From Aciduliprofundum sp. MAR08-339 (GTDB lineage: Archaea > Thermoplasmatota > Thermoplasmata > Thermoplasmatales > Aciduliprofundaceae): DNA of 64,000 nt. A model generated the notes under the pieces. That model was not told where the DNA came from. It worked only from the letters and a program-made list of their open reading frames with translations, and ran no database searches. The stretch covers positions 1,116,001 to 1,180,000 of the forward strand of contig NC_019942.1 in NCBI RefSeq assembly GCF_000327505.1. The letters are read 5' to 3'. The position numbers and the translations under genes are program-made. Positions 48,219-59,399 of this stretch are shown piece by piece (the first letter of the stretch is position 1; every line of letters begins with the position of its first letter).

Positions 48219-48530
48219 ATGATTCAGGACGAGATTAAAAGAATCAGAGAGGCCGAGAGTGACGCACTTCGCAGGATAGAGGAGGCAGAGAAGGACAGTA
48301 AGGAACGAATAGAACAGGCAAAGAAGGAGATAAGAAGGAGCATAGAGATAGAGCGTGAGGAGATTTTGAAGGCCATAGAGGAGTGGAAAAGGAACGCGGA
48401 AGAAGAGGGCAGGAAAGAGGCAGAGCGTATAATCTCGGAGTACAGGGAGAAGGTGAAGGAGATTGAAGCCATAGAGGAGTCCAAGATAAAAGAAGTGGCC
48501 TCAAAGGTTCTTGGAGAGATATTTGGGTGA
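48219..48530 (+). CDS. atpH: A-type ATP synthase subunit H
   Basis: 103 residues, a single long charged alpha-helix (Glu/Lys/Arg rich, with heptad pattern) with start MIQDEIKRIREAESDALRRI. Subunit H pairs with subunit E to form the peripheral stalks. The family consensus start and a TATA box support ATG 48219. It is first in the operon H-I-K-E-C-F-A-B and ends in a 3-nt overlap region before subunit I. Confidence 0.85.
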   Translation: MIQDEIKRIREAESDALRRIEEAEKDSKERIEQAKKEIRRSIEIEREEILKAIEEWKRNAEEEGRKEAERIISEYREKVKEIEAIEESKIKEVASKVLGEIFG

Positions 48531-48535
48531 AATGC

Positions 48536-50677
48536 ATGCTGTTTCCATCAAAGATGGTGGAAGTCGAAATTCTCGTGCACAATTCCGTTAAATACAATGT
48601 GCTAAAGACAATGCAGAGGAACGGATTTATGCATATAACCCAGCACAACGTTGAGGGCCTTGAAAATGCTGCCCCATCCGATGTTGCCACGGAGATTGTT
48701 GATTATGAGTTTCGGGTTGGCAAGTTAATTGAGATTCTGAATATAGCAAAGGAGAGAAAGAAGACCGGTCTTCTTGCGTCCCTGCAGACAGAGCCACCGG
48801 AGAGATTTCCAGCAAGGCCAAGGGATAGAGAGGAGATTTTGAAGGATGCTGAGTCCACACTTCGAAAAATAGAACCCCAGATTTTAACACTCTATTCCAG
48901 ATGGGAGGGCGTAAATGGAGAGATTGAGAGAATAAAGATCCAGAGATTGCAGGTTGAGAAGTTGAAGAACATACCAATAGATATCTCTTATCTTGGGGAA
49001 GGTCCCTACGCTTACATTGTTGCAGGTACGGCAAAAAATCTGGAGCGTCTTGAGAAACTAAAGAAGGAGGGAAAAATTGCGCTGTGGAGCTTCACGGAAG
49101 GCAAGAAGAAGGATGTTACATATACCATTGTTTTGGCATCTCACATGAAGGATAAGAAGGACGTAGAATCTGCCCTTAGATTTGCCGGATTCTCTGAATT
49201 TGAACTTGGAGGGTGGAGTGGCTTACCAAATGAGGTTCTCAAAGCCATGGATAAAAAGATTGGGGAGCTCAGGAAGGAAAGGGATAAAATAAGAAATGAG
49301 TTGGGAGTTTTCAGAAGAAAGTACTACCCCTACCTATCTGTGTTAAAGGATGACCTCTACAATGAGAAGGTAAAGGAGGAAATTCACTCGAAGTTTGGGA
49401 GGACTCATTACACCACGCTTGTAAGGGGATTCATCCCGAAGAAGGATTTTGATAGGGCCAAGAATGCTATAGAATCCGTATCTCGCGGGTTGGCCTATAT
49501 AAAATGGAGAGATGCCCAGGGAGACGATGTTCCTGTAAAATACAATAATGCTAAAATCTTCAGGCCGTTTCAGGCCTTTGTGGACATGTACTCTACTCCG
49601 AAGTACGGGCATATTGACCCAACTGTTATAATCGCACCCCTCTTTGTTATATACTTTGGCCTGACTCTGGGAGATGCCGGATACGGTATGATAATGGCCG
49701 TTCTCGGCTTCATAATGTGGAAGCCCCTTGGCAAGTACAACTGGACCAACAGAACTCTTGGCTCCATACTCTTCGTTTCCGGGCTATCTGCAGTGGTGTT
49801 TGGTCTCTTGCAGGGGGGAATATTTGGCCCGTTGAACGAATCAAATCCCCTATACCCGCTTGTGCACTACAAGCCGGTGCTGGATCCTATGCAGGATCCA
49901 ATAACCCTTCTTGTGATATCGCTTATTGTTGGTGTTTTCCAGCTAAGCCTTGGGCTTGCGCTCGGTGCGTTTCACCATCTCAAGGATAAGAATTATGCGG
50001 AATTCCTACAGGCTGAGGTTTCATGGTTTGTCCTGTTCCCGGCTGGGGGCGCCTTAATAGGGTATTATTTTGGATGGTGGCCTCTTCAGGGTACATATCT
50101 AACCTTGGCATGGATTTTCACCGTAATTGGCCTGTTCCTATTTCTGCCGGGAGTGGCAAGCAAGATGGTGGATAGAAAAGCATCCATAAATGGACTCTTC
50201 TTCTTTGACATTACGGGCATGATTGGTGATTGGCTCTCATACTCCCGCCTGCTTGCCCTTGATCTAGCCACATCAGGTCTCGCATTGACAATAAACATTC
50301 TTGCAGGTATAATATGGAGCATGACCAAGGGTGCAAGCAGCATGGTTTGCTGTCTACCTGTGCTTCTTGCAGGTGTTGCTCTTGCATTGCTTTGGATGAG
50401 GAAAAAGGATCCTATGAAGAAGGGCATAATAATCCTGCTTCTCATATTCGGCATAGTTGGAATGGTGAATCTCCACGCTGCAATATGGTTATTTGTTGGA
50501 ATATTCCTCGTGGTTGGGCATATAGGAAACTCAATGCTTCAGGCCCTAGGCTCCTTTGTTCACTCCCTACGTTTGCAGTATGTGGAGTTCTTCTCAAAGT
50601 TCTATGAGGGTGATGGCGTGAAATTCGAACCTTTTAGAGAGATTAGGAAGCACAGCCGTTTGGAGGTGAAAGAATAA
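48536..50677 (+). CDS. atpI: A-type ATP synthase subunit I (a)
   Basis: About 713 residues. The N-terminal 330 residues are the cytoplasmic stalk domain (MVEVEILVHNSVKYNVL, then coiled coils at 85-125 and 240-270); the C-terminal half has about eight membrane helices forming the ion half-channels. The conserved helix around DWLSYSRLLALDLATSGLA contains the essential Arg, and the last helix HSLRLQYVEFFSKFYEGDG is characteristic. ATG 48536 follows GGGTGA; a GTG at 48527 overlaps atpH. Confidence 0.95.
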   Translation: MLFPSKMVEVEILVHNSVKYNVLKTMQRNGFMHITQHNVEGLENAAPSDVATEIVDYEFRVGKLIEILNIAKERKKTGLLASLQTEPPERFPARPRDREEILKDAESTLRKIEPQILTLYSRWEGVNGEIERIKIQRLQVEKLKNIPIDISYLGEGPYAYIVAGTAKNLERLEKLKKEGKIALWSFTEGKKKDVTYTIVLASHMKDKKDVESALRFAGFSEFELGGWSGLPNEVLKAMDKKIGELRKERDKIRNELGVFRRKYYPYLSVLKDDLYNEKVKEEIHSKFGRTHYTTLVRGFIPKKDFDRAKNAIESVSRGLAYIKWRDAQGDDVPVKYNNAKIFRPFQAFVDMYSTPKYGHIDPTVIIAPLFVIYFGLTLGDAGYGMIMAVLGFIMWKPLGKYNWTNRTLGSILFVSGLSAVVFGLLQGGIFGPLNESNPLYPLVHYKPVLDPMQDPITLLVISLIVGVFQLSLGLALGAFHHLKDKNYAEFLQAEVSWFVLFPAGGALIGYYFGWWPLQGTYLTLAWIFTVIGLFLFLPGVASKMVDRKASINGLFFFDITGMIGDWLSYSRLLALDLATSGLALTINILAGIIWSMTKGASSMVCCLPVLLAGVALALLWMRKKDPMKKGIIILLLIFGIVGMVNLHAAIWLFVGIFLVVGHIGNSMLQALGSFVHSLRLQYVEFFSKFYEGDGVKFEPFREIRKHSRLEVKE

Positions 50678-52488
50678 TGAAAAAAGTCATTCCGCTTGTG
50701 TTTCTGGGCGCGATACTCCTGCTCCTTGCGGGCTCCCTGCCCGCACATGCGCAGGGTGTTGAACCCACTGTGGCGTATGAGATGAATGGTAAACTTGTTG
50801 AAAAACCGTTGAGCGAGGTAAATTCCTCCGGCGCATTTGAAATAGGCAAGGAGTACACATTTAAGTGGAGTTCCAGTGTAACATGGATATTGAGCAATGG
50901 CAAACAGAATCTCACTGCAACTGGTGAAACTTTCAAATTCATGCCGGAGGGTAGTGGAACCTACAAATTAACGGTCATTGAAAATTCAACCCAATACACA
51001 TACACATTTGTGGTGGGTGAGGGTCCTCTTGGAGGCTACCTAGCTTTGATAGGTGCTGGACTTGCTGTCGGGTTATCTGCCATTGGCTCCGGTGTTGGGG
51101 TTGGAATCACGGGAGCGAGCGGTGCGGCTGCGATAGGGAGCAACCCCAAGAGCAAGTTTGGAAGAATTCTCATATTTCAGGCATTTCCACAGACCCAGGC
51201 AATTTACGGTTTTCTCATAGCGATAATCATAATGATGGGAATTGGTGCGTTCTCAGGTAATATTGAAAATGTGCCCATATCAATAGGTCTTGCCGCCATA
51301 GGTGCTGGCATATCTGTGGGCCTCGCCGGATTGAGTGCCATTGGTCAGGGTATAGTTGCTGGCACGGGTATAGGCACAACGCAGCATGATAGGGTCTCCT
51401 ATGGTAAGGCGGTTGTGTTCTCCATTCTTCCAGAGACACAGGCAATTTACGGTCTACTTATAGCCATACTCATACTTTACGGCTCAGGTATGTTCGGTGG
51501 CGGTGTTAAGCACTACTCCATCGGGGTTGGTCTTGCAGCCATTGGTGCCGGTCTTGCCATGGGAGTTAGCGGTCTCACGGCCATAGGTCAGGGCATAGCT
51601 GCTTCAAGTTCCTGCGCAGCCACGGCTGAGAATCCAAAGGCATTTACGAAGGGTATGATCTTCTCCGTCATTGCAGAAACACCGAGTATCACCGCTTTGA
51701 TCATCGCTATAGTTGTTCTGAGCGCCACCGGTTTACTGAGTGGTGGAAACTTTATGGGTGGGGATGCCGCCATGTTTGTTGGTCTTGCAGCCATCGGTGC
51801 AGGTCTCGCTGTTGGTTTTGCCGGTCTAAGCGGTATAGGTCTTGGAATTGCCGCTGGAAGCAGCGTGTATGCAAGTATGCGTGAGAAAGCATCCTTCGGT
51901 AAGATCATGGTGTTTGCCATAATGCCAGAAACCCAGGTTATTTACGGATTGCTTGTTGCCATATTCATTGTCAATGGAGCGGGGTTGTTCGGTTCAACTC
52001 CACAGGTATTCCCTCTGGGAGTTGGTCTTGCAGCCATCGGTGCCGGTCTCGCAATAGGGGTCAGTGGTATGACCGCCATAGGTCAGGGTATTGCTGCGGG
52101 AAGCGGTGCTGCTGCATCCACTGAGAAGCCAAGTGCATTTTCAAAATCCATAATATTTTCCGTTCTTCCTGAGACGCAGAGTATATACGCTCTCATAGTG
52201 TCCATAATAATACTCTATGCCGTTGGCCTGCTTGGTGGAGGTATGCAGATACCGAAATCCATGGCCATGTTTGTGGGTATAGGGGCCATAGGTGCCGGTC
52301 TTGCGATAGGATTTGCAGGCCTGAGCGGTATAGGCCAGGGTATAACTGCCGCAATGGGTGTGGGTGCATTCACCCGTAGACCAGAGAGTTTCGGAAAGAG
52401 TATGATGCTATCCGTGATGAGCGAGACATTCGCAATATTTGGACTTCTGGTAGCCATACTGCTGCTTATGGCCATAGGGGTGTTCTAA
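50677..52488 (+). CDS. atpK: A-type ATP synthase rotor subunit K (c), six-hairpin form
   Basis: 603 residues versus about 70-220 in most archaea. Residues 1-25 are a signal peptide (cleavage after AHA); 26-115 form a beta-rich extracytoplasmic domain; six two-helix hairpins follow. The ion-binding position reads Gln in hairpin 1 (FPQTQAIYG) and Glu in hairpins 2-6 (LPETQAIYG, IAETPSITA, MPETQVIYG, LPETQSIYA, MSETFAIFG). A Gln in helix 1 (AIGQGI) is present in hairpins 2, 3, 5 and 6, Leu in 4 and Ser in 1. It forms the membrane rotor ring, five carboxylates per chain. Confidence 0.93.
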   Translation: MKKVIPLVFLGAILLLLAGSLPAHAQGVEPTVAYEMNGKLVEKPLSEVNSSGAFEIGKEYTFKWSSSVTWILSNGKQNLTATGETFKFMPEGSGTYKLTVIENSTQYTYTFVVGEGPLGGYLALIGAGLAVGLSAIGSGVGVGITGASGAAAIGSNPKSKFGRILIFQAFPQTQAIYGFLIAIIIMMGIGAFSGNIENVPISIGLAAIGAGISVGLAGLSAIGQGIVAGTGIGTTQHDRVSYGKAVVFSILPETQAIYGLLIAILILYGSGMFGGGVKHYSIGVGLAAIGAGLAMGVSGLTAIGQGIAASSSCAATAENPKAFTKGMIFSVIAETPSITALIIAIVVLSATGLLSGGNFMGGDAAMFVGLAAIGAGLAVGFAGLSGIGLGIAAGSSVYASMREKASFGKIMVFAIMPETQVIYGLLVAIFIVNGAGLFGSTPQVFPLGVGLAAIGAGLAIGVSGMTAIGQGIAAGSGAAASTEKPSAFSKSIIFSVLPETQSIYALIVSIIILYAVGLLGGGMQIPKSMAMFVGIGAIGAGLAIGFAGLSGIGQGITAAMGVGAFTRRPESFGKSMMLSVMSETFAIFGLLVAILLLMAIGVF

Positions 52489-53073
52489 ATGGACGCCATT
52501 GAAAATATAATAAAGAGAATCCGCGAGGATGCAGATTGGAAGATCAAGGAGTACTACGAGAAAGCGGAGAGGGAAATAGAAAAGATAAAAAATGCAGAGC
52601 AGGGAAAATGGGAAAGGGAAAAGGAGAAACTCGAATCCTCCGGAAAAAGAGAGGCTGAAACGATAAAGCAGATGCACATATCCAAGGCGCACCTGGATGG
52701 CAAGAAGATGCTAATGAATGCTAGGGAATGGATAATACATATGATCATTGAAGAAATGCTCATGAATTTCAGGGATTATGTGGATTATAGGAAATACATT
52801 GAGAACTCCATAAAGGATGCTGCCGATTTGCTGGGCAATAGATTCGAAATTCTGTGTAAAAAAGAAGATATTGGGCTAATTGAAGGTATGGTTAAGGATA
52901 TGGGTCTTCAGGTGAATGTGCAAGAGGGTGATGTAGAGTACGGTGGGTTTCTGGCAGTGAGCACTGATGGATTGAAGAATGTGGATTACTCTGCTAGGGC
53001 ATTTGTTGATAGGAATATGGGGGATATTAGGAAGAAGATATATTTGAGGCTATTCGGTGAAGAACATGCTTGA
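52489..53073 (+). CDS. atpE: A-type ATP synthase subunit E
   Basis: 194 residues. The N-terminal 75 residues are a charged helix (IIKRIREDADWKIKEYYEKA) that pairs with subunit H in the peripheral stalk; the C-terminal half is the globular head, with VDYRKYIENSIKDAADLLG and GGFLAVSTDGLKNVDYSARAF. Starts one nt after the atpK stop and overlaps atpC. Confidence 0.92.
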   Translation: MDAIENIIKRIREDADWKIKEYYEKAEREIEKIKNAEQGKWEREKEKLESSGKREAETIKQMHISKAHLDGKKMLMNAREWIIHMIIEEMLMNFRDYVDYRKYIENSIKDAADLLGNRFEILCKKEDIGLIEGMVKDMGLQVNVQEGDVEYGGFLAVSTDGLKNVDYSARAFVDRNMGDIRKKIYLRLFGEEHA

Positions 53074-54154
53074 TTCCACGGCAATAATCCTGGCAATTAC
53101 GATTTCGTTTCTCGCCATCTTTGTTACAATAGCCTTCCTTATGGGCTTTTTCAGAAAGATGCTGAATATCGGGGCCTACATGGGCCCCAATGCGACCATA
53201 TTCGCCATAGGTGCAAAATACACTGAGAAAGAAAACATTGAAAAGCTGCTCAACTACACGAATTTGACTGAGGTTATATCAGACATAGGAAAGGAGGGCT
53301 ATAACATTGAGGATTTGAAGAAGTACGACATTGAGTTGGAGAAGAGCATGCTTGCCATGGTGCAGAGAGTAGTGGAAATGTTACCGGACGAGGGTAAGAG
53401 CTTTGCTGAAGCCTATATGCTTAAATACGATGCAAATATGATCAAGAGGATTCTGAGGGCCAAGTATGCAGGGGTGTCAAAGAATAGAATCTATGAGGAA
53501 GTTTATGAAGGTCGCTTTATATCAAAATTGATAATTCAGCACATGGTTGAGGCTACCAGTATGGAGGATGCAATAACGGCCTTAGATGCCACGCCCTTTG
53601 CCGAAGTAATAAAGGTATGGAACGAATCCAACGATATCTACAAGGTGGATGTTGCCCTTGATCGGATAGTCCTGAAAAACCTCGTAGAGTCTAAGAGAAT
53701 GCTCGATGAGAACTCAATGGAACCCATAAACATAGTTATCCCAATGTTTGTGGATGTATTCAACATAAAGACCATAGTCCGAGCCAAGAGTGCGGGTATT
53801 GAGGACATAGGAAACCTGCTTCTTGACGGGGGCTACCAGTTGAGTGACTGGAAGGTTCGAAGTATGGCAAATGCAAGAACTCTTGATGAGGCTCTTTCCC
53901 AACTTGAAGGCACAGATTACGCATTTTTGAGGGATGTTGAAGATCCATTCATTGTAGAACTTGAACTGGATAAGATGCTTCTCAGGAAGGTCAATGAGAT
54001 TGGTTTAACCTTTGCCACCACAGCCGGGCCGCTCATAATGTTCCTAGTATCCAAGGAGTATGAGGTGAGAAATCTGAAAGGGATCATTAAGGGTTTTATG
54101 GAGGATTTGCCCAAGGACAGGATCAGGGGCTTGCTGGTGGGTGATGTGGCATGA
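53066..54154 (+). CDS. atpC: A-type ATP synthase subunit C with N-terminal membrane segment
   Basis: About 362 residues, homologous to subunit C/d, which couples the central stalk to the rotor ring. Family segments are IGKEGYNIEDLKKYDIELEK, LKYDANMIKRILRAKYAG, FVDVFNIKTIVRAKSAG and FLVSKEYEVRNLKGIIKGFMEDLP. Unusually the first 35 residues contain a clear hydrophobic helix (AIILAITISFLAIFVTIAFL), whereas the subunit is normally soluble. ATG 53066 follows GGTGAAG; a GTG at 53057 overlaps atpE. Confidence 0.9.
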   Translation: MLDSTAIILAITISFLAIFVTIAFLMGFFRKMLNIGAYMGPNATIFAIGAKYTEKENIEKLLNYTNLTEVISDIGKEGYNIEDLKKYDIELEKSMLAMVQRVVEMLPDEGKSFAEAYMLKYDANMIKRILRAKYAGVSKNRIYEEVYEGRFISKLIIQHMVEATSMEDAITALDATPFAEVIKVWNESNDIYKVDVALDRIVLKNLVESKRMLDENSMEPINIVIPMFVDVFNIKTIVRAKSAGIEDIGNLLLDGGYQLSDWKVRSMANARTLDEALSQLEGTDYAFLRDVEDPFIVELELDKMLLRKVNEIGLTFATTAGPLIMFLVSKEYEVRNLKGIIKGFMEDLPKDRIRGLLVGDVA

Positions 54155-54468
54155 AGATACTTGTTATTGGAGACAGGGATATGGTCAACGGGTTCCAGCT
54201 TGCAGGCATAAAGGATGTCTATGAGGCAAATGACCCCTGGAAAATCAAGGAAATCCTTGATGATGTTAAATTTATGAAAGATGTGGCAATTGTCATAATA
54301 TCCAGAAGAATGGCCCAGGAGATTAGGGATTTTCTGGATGAATGGAAAAGGGAAAAAGGCATATACCCCATAATATTGGAAATTCCCGATAAGAAAGGTG
54401 GAGAGTTTGAAGATCCTATGAGGAGTCTGGTTAAGAGAGCCATAGGTGTGGATATATTGAAGAGGTGA
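54151..54468 (+). CDS. atpF: A-type ATP synthase subunit F
   Basis: 105 residues with the Rossmann-like fold of subunit F: ILVIGDRDMVNGFQLAGI at the N-terminus, VAIVIISRRMAQEIRDF in the middle and PIILEIPDKKG near the end. Part of the central stalk. Overlaps atpC by 4 nt (ATGA). Confidence 0.94.
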   Translation: MKILVIGDRDMVNGFQLAGIKDVYEANDPWKIKEILDDVKFMKDVAIVIISRRMAQEIRDFLDEWKREKGIYPIILEIPDKKGGEFEDPMRSLVKRAIGVDILKR

Positions 54469-54474
54469 AAGAAA

Positions 54475-56223
54475 ATGGGAAAGATAATTAGAGTAGCAGG
54501 TCCAGTGGTCGTTGCGGATGGAATGAAGGGCAGTGAAATGTACGAAGTGGTGCATGTTGGCGAAGAGGGACTGATAGGTGAGATAATAGGATTGTACGGA
54601 GATACCGCTACAATCCAGGTTTACGAGGAAACTTCAGGCATAAGGCCAGGAGAGCCCGTCAAACGCACAGGAGCTCCCCTGTCGGTCATGCTCGGACCGG
54701 GTATAATATCTCAGATTTACGATGGTATCCAGCGTCCATTGCCTCAAATAAAGGATATGATGGGCGATTTCATAAAGAGGGGTGCAAGTGCATCCCCATT
54801 GGATACCAATAAAAAATGGCATTTTGTACCCAGAGTAAAGAAGGGCGATAGGGTGACCGGTGGAGATATACTCGGCACCGTGCAGGAGACAAAAATTGTA
54901 GAGCATCGCATAATGGTACCTCCTGAAAAAGAAGGTAAGATTGAATGGATTGCGGAGGAGGGCGATTACACAATAGAAGAGCCAATTGCAAGGATAAATG
55001 GAGAGGATATAAAGATGTATCAGCGCTGGCCAGTGCGCAGACAGAGACCCTTCCGTGAGAAAATGGACCCAATTCAGCTGCTGGTAACTGGACAGAGGGT
55101 TCTGGATACATTCTTCCCAATAGCCAAGGGCGGTACGGCTGCAATACCCGGAGGATTCGGAACGGGGAAAACGGTGACACAGCATCAACTTGCCAAGTGG
55201 AGCGATGCGGATATTGTTGTGTATGTGGGTTGTGGAGAGCGCGGCAACGAGATGACCGAAGTGCTTGAAGATTTTCCCAAACTCAAGGATCCTCGCAGTG
55301 GAGAGCCCCTTATGAATCGTACAGTTTTAATCGCGAACACATCAAATATGCCGGTGGCTGCAAGGGAAGCATCAATTTATACGGGAATTACCATCGCAGA
55401 GTACTTCAGGGATATGGGCTACCATGTTGCTCTGATGGCTGATTCCACATCCCGCTGGGCCGAGGCTTTAAGGGAAATATCTGGAAGGTTGGAAGAAATG
55501 CCGGGAGAGGAAGGTTATCCTGCCTATCTCGCATCGCGTCTTGCTGAATTCTACGAGCGTGCCGGCTATGTTGAGGTTCTCGGCTCTGAAAAGAAGTATG
55601 GCTCTGTCACTGTGGTGGGTGCCGTATCCCCTCCAGGTGGTGATTTCTCCGAGCCTGTCACGCAGAACACTCTCCGCATAGTCAAGGTGTTTTGGGCCCT
55701 TGATGCAGACCTTGCCCACAAAAGGCATTTTCCGTCAATACACTGGCTTCGCTCATATTCTCTTTACCTCAATTCTGTTCGCCACTGGTGGGAGAATAAC
55801 ATTGCCAAGGACTGGTACGATCTGCGTCGTGAGGCCATGGGCATATTGCAGAGGGAAGCGGAGCTGCAGGAAATAGTTCAACTGGTGGGTCCAGATGCCC
55901 TGCCTGCAAAGGAGCAGGCATTGCTGGAGACAGCCCGTTCAATAAGGGAGGACTTTCTGCAGCAGAATGCTTTCCATGATGTTGATACCTATTGTCCCGC
56001 TGATAAGCAGTACTTGATGCTCAAATTGATACTGAAGTTCCATAAACTAATAACGGACGCCGTTGAGCTTGGTGTGAGCATGGATAAGATCAGAAAATTG
56101 AGCATTAAGGAAGACCTTGCCTATATGGGTAGAATACCCAACGAGACCTACAAGGATGAGTTCAAAAACATTGAGGCAAAGATGGAAAATGAGATAGAGA
56201 ATCTCATAAAAGAGGTGAAGTAA
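54475..56223 (+). CDS. atpA: A-type ATP synthase catalytic subunit A
   Basis: 582 residues, full catalytic subunit. N-terminal barrel ([18 protein letters not shown]), bulge domain, then the nucleotide-binding domain with Walker [14 protein letters not shown] near residue 233, catalytic Glu in [13 protein letters not shown], Walker [22 protein letters not shown] and [13 protein letters not shown]. The usual archaeal P-loop is GPFGSGKT; here Pro is Gly and Ser is Thr. No intein is present at this site, although Thermoplasma species carry one. A GGTGAAAGAA ribosome binding region precedes the ATG. Confidence 0.98.
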
Positions 56224-57603
56224 ATGGAGGTTGAATACCGCACAATTAGAGAAATTAAAGGTCCTTTGCTCATTGTGGAAAATACCAAGGACGTTGCCTA
56301 CGGCGAAGTGGTCAAGATTCGCGGTCCAGACGGTAAGGAACGTCTCGGTCAGGTGCTTGAAGCAAGGGAAAATATGGCTGTTGTTCAGGTTTTTGAAGGT
56401 ACCAGAGGTCTGGATGTTAAATCCACATCCGTGAAATTTTTGGGCGATACCCTGAAAATAGGTGTTTCTTTGGATATGCTCGGCCGCGTGTTTGACGGCA
56501 CGGGTAGGCCCATTGATGGAGGCCCCGATATCATACCTGAGGAGATGAGAGACATAAATGGGTACCCCATTAATCCAGCTGCGAGGGAGTATCCAAGGGA
56601 ATTCATACAGACTGGTATATCCACCATTGATGGAATGAACACATTGGTTAGGGGCCAAAAATTGCCCATATTCAGCGGTTCAGGTATGCCCCACAATGAA
56701 ATAGCGGCCCAGATTGCAAGGCAGGCGAAATTGAGAGGTAAGGGTGAAAAATTTGCGGTTGTGTTCGTTGCCATGGGTATAACTGCTGAGGAGGCAAATT
56801 TCTTCCGCAAGGAGTTTGAACGCACGGGTGCGCTTGAGCGTACGGTTCTGTTCCTCAATTTAGCCAATGATCCTGCTATAGAGCGTATTGTTATACCGAG
56901 GATGGGATTGACAGTGGCCGAATATCTTGCCTACGATAGGGATATGCATGTTCTCGTCATCTTGACGGATATGACCAACTACTGCGAGGCTTTGAGAGAA
57001 ATATCTGCTGCCCGTGAGGAGGTTCCTGGTCGTCGCGGTTATCCTGGCTACATGTACACTGATCTTGCTACCATATATGAACGCGCAGGAAGAATAAGGG
57101 GGAAGAAGGGAAGCATTACCCAGATACCCATACTCACAATGCCAGATGATGACATGACCCATCCAATTCCGGATCTCACAGGATACATAACGGAGGGGCA
57201 GATTGTGCTTAGCAGAGCTCTGCACCGTCGTGGAATATATCCCCCCATAAATCCCCTCCTTTCACTTTCAAGGCTTATGAAGGAGGGCATTGGCGAAGGT
57301 AGAACCCGAGAGGACCATGCAGGTGTGGCAAACCAGTTGTACGCTGCATACGCAGAGGGTCTAAGATTGAGGGACCTTGTTGCTGTGGTGGGTGAAGAGG
57401 CCCTTGGTGAGGAGGACAGAATATTGCTTAAATTTGCCGATGCATTCGAGGAGAGATTCATAACTCAAGGAAGGGATGAGGATAGAAGTATAGAGGATAC
57501 TCTGGGCATAGCATGGAATCTCCTTGCCCTGCTTCCAAAAAGTTATCTTAAGAAGATAGACAGAAAGTACATTGAAAAGTATTTGCCGAAGGTTACAAAA
57601 TGA
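56224..57603 (+). CDS. atpB: A-type ATP synthase regulatory subunit B
   Basis: 459 residues, the non-catalytic nucleotide-binding subunit. Typical are the degenerate P-loop [78 protein letters not shown] and [23 protein letters not shown]. Starts immediately after atpA with GAGGTGAAGTAA before it. It is the last gene of the operon; subunit D does not follow, the next gene being convergent with an 11-nt overlap. Confidence 0.98.
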
Positions 57604-58474
57604 GGTCCATAAGGGAAGAGTAGCGTACTATGGAATCAGCAACTATGGTTGCAACCTTACAATCTCTTTCTTTTGATATTTTTAAAGCGTGGTAGTAATT
57701 GGCTCCGGAGGTGAATCCACCAGGAATTCCCGCAGAGAGGAGGGCCTTTACTCCCTTTATACTCATCTCAGAATCCACAACGACTATCTCGTCTATTATA
57801 TTTTCATCAAAGGCCATTTTCAGAAGTTCTGTGAATGAATGGTATGAAAAACCTTCAAGAATAGGAGCATCCTCCTCAACCTCATCAAACAGTTCTTTTT
57901 GAAGTTCAGAGCCTTTTGGTATGAGGAGTACGATTTTTATTTTTTCATTTCTCTCTTTGAGGTATTTTCCTATTCCGTAAATGGTGCCACCTGTTCCCGC
58001 ACCCATGACAAAGCAATCAAGGTCCTCCGCCTGTGAGAGTAATTCAGGGCCAGTTGTTTCGTAATGGGCCCTGAAATTTGCCCTATTCTTTGTTTGTTCA
58101 AGATAAAACCCATTTATTTCCTCTGCCAATTTTTCCGCAAGTATATGCCCATCCTCTTCAGGAGGCACGATTATTGTCTCTGCTCCAAGGGCCCTTATCA
58201 TGTTCACCTTTTCCTTGGAGGTTCCCTGAGGAACGAAAATTACAGGCTTGTATCCGAAAAATTTGGAAGCCCATGCGACTGAAATGCCAGTATTTCCTGA
58301 GGTGTATTCAATTACAGGAGTGCCCTTCGCATATCCTTTATTCTCAACGTCTCTGAGCATGTACAGCGCAATTCTATCTTTGTGACTTCCCGTGGGATTC
58401 AGGTACTCCAGTTTGAGATACACATTATCAATTTTAACAAGTGGGGTATTACCCACGAGATCTTTGATCTCCAT
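57593..58474 (-). CDS. cysteine synthase-like PLP-dependent enzyme
   Basis: About 293 residues of the fold-type II PLP family (CysK/CysM/cystathionine beta-synthase core). The PLP lysine is in [14 protein letters not shown] near residue 31, the substrate-loop motif is [14 protein letters not shown], and the phosphate-binding glycines are [13 protein letters not shown]-terminal [16 protein letters not shown] matches the family. The substrate may be O-acetylserine, O-phosphoserine or another. ATG 58474 follows GGTGATTAG and overlaps the ftsY end by 1-2 nt. Confidence 0.9.
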
Positions 58475-58475
58475 G

Positions 58476-59399
58476 CTAATCACCGAAAACCCTTTTCAAG
58501 AACCAGTTAACATCAAATTTCATCAAATCCTCATAGTTCTGTCCGTTTCCAAAAAATATTATGGGTTTTTTGAGTTCGTATGCTATGCTGATGGCAGCCC
58601 CACCCTTCGCATCTGCGTCTATCTTTGTAAGTATTATGGCATCTACTCCCACTTCCCTATCGAAAATCTTTGCCTGCTCGATGGCATCGTTTCCGGCAAG
58701 AGAATCTCCAACAAATATTGTTAGATGGGGTTTTGCCACACGCTTTATCTTTTTCATTTCTTCCATTAGGTTCCTATTGGTCTGCATTCTTCCAGCGGTG
58801 TCTATCAGCACAAAGTCCTTTCTTTTTGCCTTTGCATGTTTAATTGCATCGTAGGCCACCGCGGCTGGGTCCCCTCCCGCTTGGTGCTTTATCACCTTCA
58901 CTCCAAGGTTCTTTCCGTGCACATCCAGTTGTTCAATAGCTCCGGCTCGGAATGTATCCGCAGCTGCCAGCACCACAGTGTGGTTCTTGTCCATAAGGTA
59001 CTTTGCAATCTTTGCTATCACTGTGGTTTTTCCTGTGCCATTTACACCGAGAAACATGATCACCGTTGGCCTAGGGGAATTTTCCACAAAGGAGTCAAAA
59101 TCAAAATCTGTACGAAATATGTCCCCTATGGAGTTTTTAAGGGTGTCTTCCACAATTTTTCCTAGATCTGCACGGAGTTTGACCTTCTTTCCCACGAGGG
59201 CCCTTTTCAGATCCCCCTTTATCTTCTCAATGACATCAACAGCGACATCTGCCTCCATCAGCGCTATTTCGATATCCCACAGAAAATCCTCAATTTTCTC
59301 CTCTGTGATCTTCTTCCCCAATCCGGATGTGAATTCCTCGTCCATGCTCTGGGCTTTTTTCCTTATGAACCCAAGTTTTTCCTTAAGGCCCCTGAACAT
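58476..59399 (-). CDS. ftsY: signal recognition particle receptor FtsY
   Basis: 307 residues with the N domain (about 20-100) and SRP-type GTPase G domain: G1 FLGVNGTGKTTVIAKIA near residue 118, the AADTFRAGAIEQL insertion, DTAGRMQTNRNLMEEMKK, the specificity motif TKIDADAKGGAAISI, and the C-terminal FFGNGQNYEDLMKF. The short N-terminal acidic region is typical of archaea. Last gene of eL20-pfdA-ftsY, a conserved archaeal order; overlaps pfdA by 17 nt. Confidence 0.97.
   Translation of the reverse strand: MFRGLKEKLGFIRKKAQSMDEEFTSGLGKKITEEKIEDFLWDIEIALMEADVAVDVIEKIKGDLKRALVGKKVKLRADLGKIVEDTLKNSIGDIFRTDFDFDSFVENSPRPTVIMFLGVNGTGKTTVIAKIAKYLMDKNHTVVLAAADTFRAGAIEQLDVHGKNLGVKVIKHQAGGDPAAVAYDAIKHAKAKRKDFVLIDTAGRMQTNRNLMEEMKKIKRVAKPHLTIFVGDSLAGNDAIEQAKIFDREVGVDAIILTKIDADAKGGAAISIAYELKKPIIFFGNGQNYEDLMKFDVNWFLKRVFGD

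Follow-up and report, generated by a model that had tools for sequence, protein, structure and literature searches.

A six-hairpin rotor subunit K of an archaeal A-type ATP synthase, with predicted ion sites shared between consecutive hairpins and a probable twelve-hairpin ring

How the ion-to-ATP ratio of rotary ATPases changes is an open question, ring size usually being what varies. Known ratios span 2.7 to 5.7 ions per ATP (PMC12018189). Subunit NtpK of Enterococcus hirae (2bl2) comprises two hairpins with one Na+ site, and a bacterial V/A-type enzyme, that of Thermus, has a 12-hairpin ring (PMC5758568). Among archaea, duplicated, triplicated and 13-hairpin K subunits are already known, as is ligand loss after duplication (PMC2359735): the hairpin is triplicated in Methanocaldococcus jannaschii K (PMC2359735), while Methanopyrus kandleri K has 13 hairpins (Lolkema and Boekema 2003, as cited in PMC2359735), all of them with complete Na+ ligands (PMC2359735).

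Within the window analyzed here (the whole 64,000-nucleotide stretch, from Aciduliprofundum sp. MAR08-339), an ATG-initiated open reading frame of 603 aa in the atpK position (50677..52488, +) encodes a rotor subunit K in which a Pfam search finds six PF00137 stretches (E 4.8e-89). These same six account for every PF00137 match across the complete 1,437,090-bp genome, so the ring must consist of the 603-aa K chain, no second K gene that might supply extra hairpins having been found by this genome-wide search. The operon runs in the order I-K-E-C-F-A-B, with atpI upstream (48527..50677, +; stator subunit I (a), conserved membrane arginines R574 and R682) and atpE (52489..53073, +; PF01991), atpC (53057..54154, +; PF01992), atpF (54151..54468, +; PF01990), atpA (54475..56223, +; PF00006 and neighbours) and atpB (56224..57603, +; PF00006 and neighbours) downstream. 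Ahead of atpI lies a probable atpH (48219..48530, +), a coiled coil with no Pfam match whose assignment draws on its location, its pattern of charges and synteny with the relatives; subunit D is encoded outside the operon, approximately 150 kb away. Two Mrp-type MnhE genes are also present in the genome. The K reading frame is intact and conserved, with dN of 0.07 far below a (saturated) dS of 2.7 in comparison with the six-hairpin K of the nearest relative, ruling out a chance open reading frame or a pseudogene.

The N-terminus of K (MKKVIPLVFLGAILLLLAGSLPAHA, followed by QG) resembles a Sec signal peptide as judged by inspection, spanning residues 1-25 (50677..50751, +) with cleavage predicted between AHA and Q, and a hydrophobic N-terminal segment is common to all complete relatives. 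Approximately 90 residues then precede hairpin 1, of which residues 27-115 (50755..51021, +) form a PKD/Ig-like, presumably extracytoplasmic domain with an all-beta AF2 model (pLDDT 93). This domain is sub-threshold against Pfam PKD (17.8 bits versus a cut-off of 23.5, E 0.0034; families PF00801/PF18911), whereas the equivalent N-terminal domains of four relatives (G103, G235, G232 and G142) exceed the cut-off; Foldseek returned weak matches (best E 0.014), several PKD domains among them. Since G230, a relative with four hairpins, bears nothing but a signal peptide at its N-terminus, the domain is dispensable, and our guess as to its role is that it fixes an N-out topology on insertion and caps the outer ring face.

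Glutamate occupies the ion-binding position in hairpins 2 to 6 (E253, E334, E418, E499 and E583). Hairpin 1 (residues 116-196; 51022..51264, +) has neither a carboxylate nor a helix-1 Gln, its ion-binding position being taken by Gln172 (codon 51190..51192, +) in a QTQ motif whose T173 and Q174 would serve the hairpin 2 site. Hairpin 2 (residues 199-278; 51271..51510, +) contributes Q224, with T254 and Q255 serving hairpin 3; hairpin 3 (residues 279-359; 51511..51753, +) contributes Q305 and T335, the latter followed by P336 in place of Gln; hairpin 4 (residues 364-443; 51766..52005, +) has L389 in place of Gln and retains its Glu; hairpin 5 (residues 446-524; 52012..52248, +) contributes Q470; and hairpin 6 (residues 529-603; 52261..52485, +) contributes Q554 and ends in a SETF motif (F585 replacing Gln) that faces a dead junction. 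Each chain here has four sites with the complete NtpK-type set, a fifth at the hairpin 3/hairpin 4 interface where the carboxylate site is degenerate (the E418 site, possibly H+-type) and one dead junction.

In phmmer alignments, Q172, T173 and Q174 align with G63, T64 and Q65 in the first NtpK hairpin, and Q554 and E583 with Q110 and E139 in the second (NtpK residue numbers counted off the printed alignment), so that hairpin 1 corresponds to NtpK's site-less first hairpin and hairpin 6 to its second. Together with the ligand table described below, this alignment ruled out a position for Gln172 away from the ion-binding site. Gln also replaces Glu in hairpin 1 of M. jannaschii K, a precedent for the substitution. 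The full-length AF2 model, which is weak (pLDDT 69, three sequences), has six helix pairs, and its best match among solved structures is NtpK 2bl2 (TM-score 0.85 by target length). The anatomy proposed in a preliminary description of this DNA, made from its letters and reading frames, therefore stands: six hairpins preceded by a signal peptide and an extracytoplasmic domain, NtpK-like ligands, and an ion-binding position held by Gln in hairpin 1 and by Glu in hairpins 2 to 6.

To characterize ligand pairing across interfaces, we compiled a ligand table of 36 multi-hairpin chains with 192 interfaces, closing each ring from last to first hairpin, and scored at every interface the helix-1 Gln of hairpin i+1 against the Gln after the Thr of hairpin i. 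Both members of this NtpK-type glutamine pair are present at 150 of the 192 interfaces and both are absent at the other 42, with none discordant; the shared-site rule, by which T and Q of one hairpin go with Q and E of the next, is concordant at 192/192. Pairing within one hairpin was ruled out, because first hairpins have Gln after Thr and no helix-1 Gln while last hairpins show the reverse. All 36 first hairpins carry Gln in place of Glu, each facing a last hairpin that has lost its Gln (motifs SETF, SETY, SEIS or SEIF). The Glu-to-Gln change is confined to such chain junctions and to hairpin 7, a fossil junction, of two 6+6 fusions (G121 and G221), in which a second dead interface persists within the chain; another twelve-hairpin chain (G226) has a single dead site. 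At the hairpin 3/hairpin 4 interface, four Aciduliprofundum-type genomes, including that of the window, have lost both glutamines (P336 and L389 here) and kept E418, with both glutamines retained in the more distant G045. Only a handful of independent events—an ancestral dead junction, the joint loss between hairpins 3 and 4, and the fusions—account for the 192 interfaces, but the position of every one is that expected from a shared site. Joint ligand loss across hairpin borders supplies sequence evidence for an NtpK-type shared site in a large family.

The six-hairpin form is not an isolated one: K chains of four, six and twelve hairpins occur in several families of the same class. The six-hairpin form is kept in relatives at 92, 83, 82 and 70% identity; within the family, five genomes have a six-hairpin K and ten a four-hairpin K (G005 of a neighbouring family included). 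Elsewhere in the class, six-hairpin chains were found in seven genomes (G103, G135, G142, G148, G153, G225 and G235), four-hairpin chains in G101, G112, G114, G128, G158, G224, G228, G230, G232, G234 and G422 (the last taken from the phylum sample), and twelve-hairpin chains in G121 (1120 aa), G221 (1129 aa) and G226 (1190 aa), with one or two hairpins in most of the phylum. Leaving aside chains cut at contig ends and lone c-like proteins encoded away from the ATPase operon, the intact K chains that we examined across the phylum have 1, 2, 4, 6 or 12 hairpins, and no intact chain of 3, 5 or 7-11 was found among those examined in the sampled phylum. We ruled out a 13-hairpin chain in G121, whose 13 PF00137 matches comprise 12 in K and one in a solitary c-like gene.

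In a hairpin tree, hairpin 4 clusters with hairpin 2 of the four-hairpin relatives and hairpin 5 with their hairpin 3 (branch support moderate), indicating that the six-hairpin chain here is one in which the pair of hairpins 2 and 3 was duplicated. Hairpins 3-5 cluster in G235, as do hairpins 4 and 5 in G103, suggesting that six was reached there by different routes. Twelve-hairpin chains, too, appear to have more than one origin, G121 and G221 being 6+6 fusions and G226 having just a single dead site.

Six hairpins are fewer than in any known ring, and with Gln172 and no helix-1 Gln in hairpin 1, this K does not fit a Methanopyrus-type monomeric rotor, in which one chain is the ring and every hairpin has a site. 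Taken as a whole, the explanation we think probable is that the cell's A-type ATP synthase has K as its one rotor subunit, that K has NtpK-like shared sites with n-1 carboxylates per chain, and that two chains assemble into a 12-hairpin ring. Under this explanation, the signal peptide would be cut off with the PKD-like domain staying outside, so that twelve helices would insert with both ends extracytoplasmic. An ion site would be made up of helix-2 Thr and Gln of hairpin i and helix-1 Gln and helix-2 Glu of hairpin i+1. The hairpins at the two chain ends would correspond to the two of an NtpK-like chain, and the internal hairpins would be insertions with complete ligand sets, such that a chain of n hairpins would possess n-1 carboxylate sites and one dead site at its junction.

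Two chains, which would yield twelve hairpins as previously proposed, would provide ten carboxylates (eight with complete Na+ ligands, two degenerate Glu418) and two dead junctions, with two copies of the PKD-like domain at the ring's outer face close to the chain junctions. Such a ring would move approximately 3.3 ions per ATP, or 2.7 if Glu418 carries none. Whether the five carboxylates per chain change the ion-to-ATP ratio, as previously suggested, hinges on ring size, which we infer to be 12 hairpins. Chains of 4, 6 and 12 hairpins all fit evenly into a ring of 12, the lowest number for which this is so, and a V/A ring of that size has a precedent in Thermus c12 (PMC5758568), pointing to a 12-hairpin ring throughout (3x4, 2x6, 1x12). 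Site counts would then be 9 (3x4), 10 (2x6 and the 6+6 fusions) and 11 (G226), or 3.0-3.67 ions per ATP, which fits within the known range (PMC12018189).

Other ring sizes have to be weighed against this. Three chains could instead form an 18-hairpin ring with 15 carboxylates and 5 ions per ATP, its circumference near that of a 20-hairpin NtpK-type ring, with five chains (20 hairpins, 15 carboxylates) in the four-hairpin relatives; a 24-hairpin ring is possible besides. NtpK is the closest solved relative in both sequence and fold, its ring has ten two-hairpin chains (PMC12018189), and the 15 carboxylates in both forms make a tidy coincidence. Twelve-hairpin chains, however, would need 24 hairpins or leave the ring incomplete, and 12 is the smallest common multiple of the three chain lengths; we regard the 18-hairpin ring as decidedly unlikely. 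It is also conceivable, if very improbable, that the chain, once inserted, is cleaved into its individual hairpins, giving a single-chain or mixed ring with size decoupled from chain length: inter-hairpin linkers are short, extracytoplasmic and variable, and cleavage would be invisible in sequence, but no recurring cleavage motif was noticed in the linkers, and ligands are lost only at chain ends or jointly over one interface, as the order of an intact chain predicts.

Hairpin number might, moreover, be neutral, drifting by unequal recombination between near-identical repeats with ring size no constraint. The internal hairpins are highly alike, making expansion easy, the events are few, and with the even divisors of 12 being 2, 4, 6 and 12, the conspicuous gaps are just 8 and 10, so that paired duplication could explain much of the series. 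Set against this, 6 and 12 were each reached through different mutational routes and intact chains of 3, 5 or 7-11 hairpins are absent from the sampled phylum, which leaves neutrality an unlikely account in our estimation.

Regarding the coupling ion, the Na+ use suggested in the preliminary description is upheld only in part, by the full NtpK ligand set at 4/6 interfaces but not by the hairpin 3/hairpin 4 interface, which lacks both glutamines, nor by the junction, which lacks a carboxylate; a complete set is thus not found at every site. A dedicated Na+ machine, which the complete sites and the two MnhE genes would favor, is in our view possible but doubtful: Glu is kept where both glutamines have gone in four genomes, with distant G045 retaining them, and H+ use is compatible with full ligand sets. 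Known Aciduliprofundum are acidophiles, in which H+ competes strongly.

Four-hairpin K chains occur even in G033 and G039, which belong to the same genus, and in G030 from the next genus. In G039, identity to G004, the nearest relative of the window's genome, is 96% for subunit A and 98% for subunit B, and the flanking ftsY and cysM likewise follow the genus, while K, E, C and F resemble those of G030 (95, 89, 89 and 85%). Subunit I of G039 is a mosaic, its first ~420 residues matching G004 (78-90%) and its membrane half matching G030 (87-92%); a similar picture is found for G033, on a contig of its own. By sequence identity, the membrane half of I and K-E-C-F appear to have been swapped as a block in these sister genomes with A and B inherited vertically, subject to the caveat of chimeric assembly, since G033, G039 and G030 are MAGs. 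The Thermus equivalents of the stator membrane half and of subunit C contact the ring (PMC5758568), such that the exchanged block includes the ring-touching parts and shows which subunits must match the ring.

Extending the twelve-hairpin reading, we judge the chances evenly balanced that the 12-hairpin circumference has stayed constant through 3x4 to 2x6 to 1x12 fusion, and that the rotor-facing parts (K, E, C, F and the membrane portion of I) have spread between lineages as a single gear cassette, the A3B3 head above them being conserved. As every junction between chains costs one ion site, fusion by itself would raise the number of active sites per turn from 9 through 10 to 11, corresponding, if true, to 3.0, 3.33 and 3.67 ions per ATP. 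A constant ring would provide a natural series varying only in chain fusion, making the ratio measurable among close relatives.

Our literature search found no paper on 4-, 6- or 12-hairpin K, on PKD-bearing K or a PKD domain fused to a rotor chain, or on a joint-loss rule, although key archaeal-rotor reviews lie outside its coverage, making the lack of a prior report weak evidence. With that reservation, the hairpin-number series, the paired-glutamine rule, the fossil junctions in 6+6 fusions and the block exchange may be new.

Compared with known systems, this K shares with NtpK an inter-hairpin site (L61, T64, Q65 with Q110, E139) and a first hairpin without carboxylate, but has six hairpins and five carboxylates per chain versus exactly two hairpins with one site, adding four internal hairpins with complete or nearly complete sites, a PKD-like domain—a domain here joined to a rotor chain—and a signal peptide; the NtpK ring, moreover, is made of ten chains. 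Like Methanopyrus K, it belongs to an A-type ATP synthase and has its hairpins joined covalently, differing in having 6 hairpins and one dead junction per chain rather than 13 all-complete hairpins, and M. jannaschii K, whose sequence lies outside this comparison, has three hairpins rather than six. The c12 ring of the Thermus thermophilus V/A-ATPase has the 12 hairpins proposed here, and its c subunit, deposited as a 99-aa chain with a signal-peptide-like N-terminal segment and as a 74-aa chain in other entries, differs in forming that ring from twelve single-hairpin chains with twelve sites for H+.

Across genera of Aciduliprofundaceae, the membrane half of subunit I and the K-E-C-F genes of the A-type ATP synthase have been swapped as a block (loci L096, L097 and L098), while A, B and the flanks at these loci are vertical and lie outside the exchanged block. 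In Aciduliprofundum sp. MAR08-339 itself, the ATPase operon lacks the gene for subunit D, which is found some 150 kb from it (genome C1:1333723-1334292); a cysteine-synthase-like gene (window 57593-58483), on the strand opposite to atpB, overlaps the end of atpB. The genome also carries two genes for the Mrp antiporter subunit MnhE (C1:570158-570631 and C1:1035897-1036331), which are relevant to Na+/H+ exchange in this organism.

We also observed c-like membrane proteins of 210-280 aa that stand alone, at L149:5615-6370 (in G128, a genome with a four-hairpin K) and at L063, L072, L073, L075-L079, L086 and L087. These have a single hairpin with a PET-type carboxylate, the L149 protein matches PF00137 barely above the cut-off, and no A-type ATPase subunit genes adjoined them at the four loci examined.

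K chains with extracytoplasmic domains are recurrent across the phylum. A PKD-like domain is found at the N-terminus of two-hairpin K chains from other classes (L139, L141, L143); among these, the domain in G427 matches PF18911 (E = 4e-15). Where the PKD domain would be, two-hairpin K chains from another class (L135, L136, L137, L142, L148) instead bear a DxDxDGMDD...DxDxDGMTNIEE repeat, which had no Pfam match in the one chain tested and resembles calcium-binding repeats.
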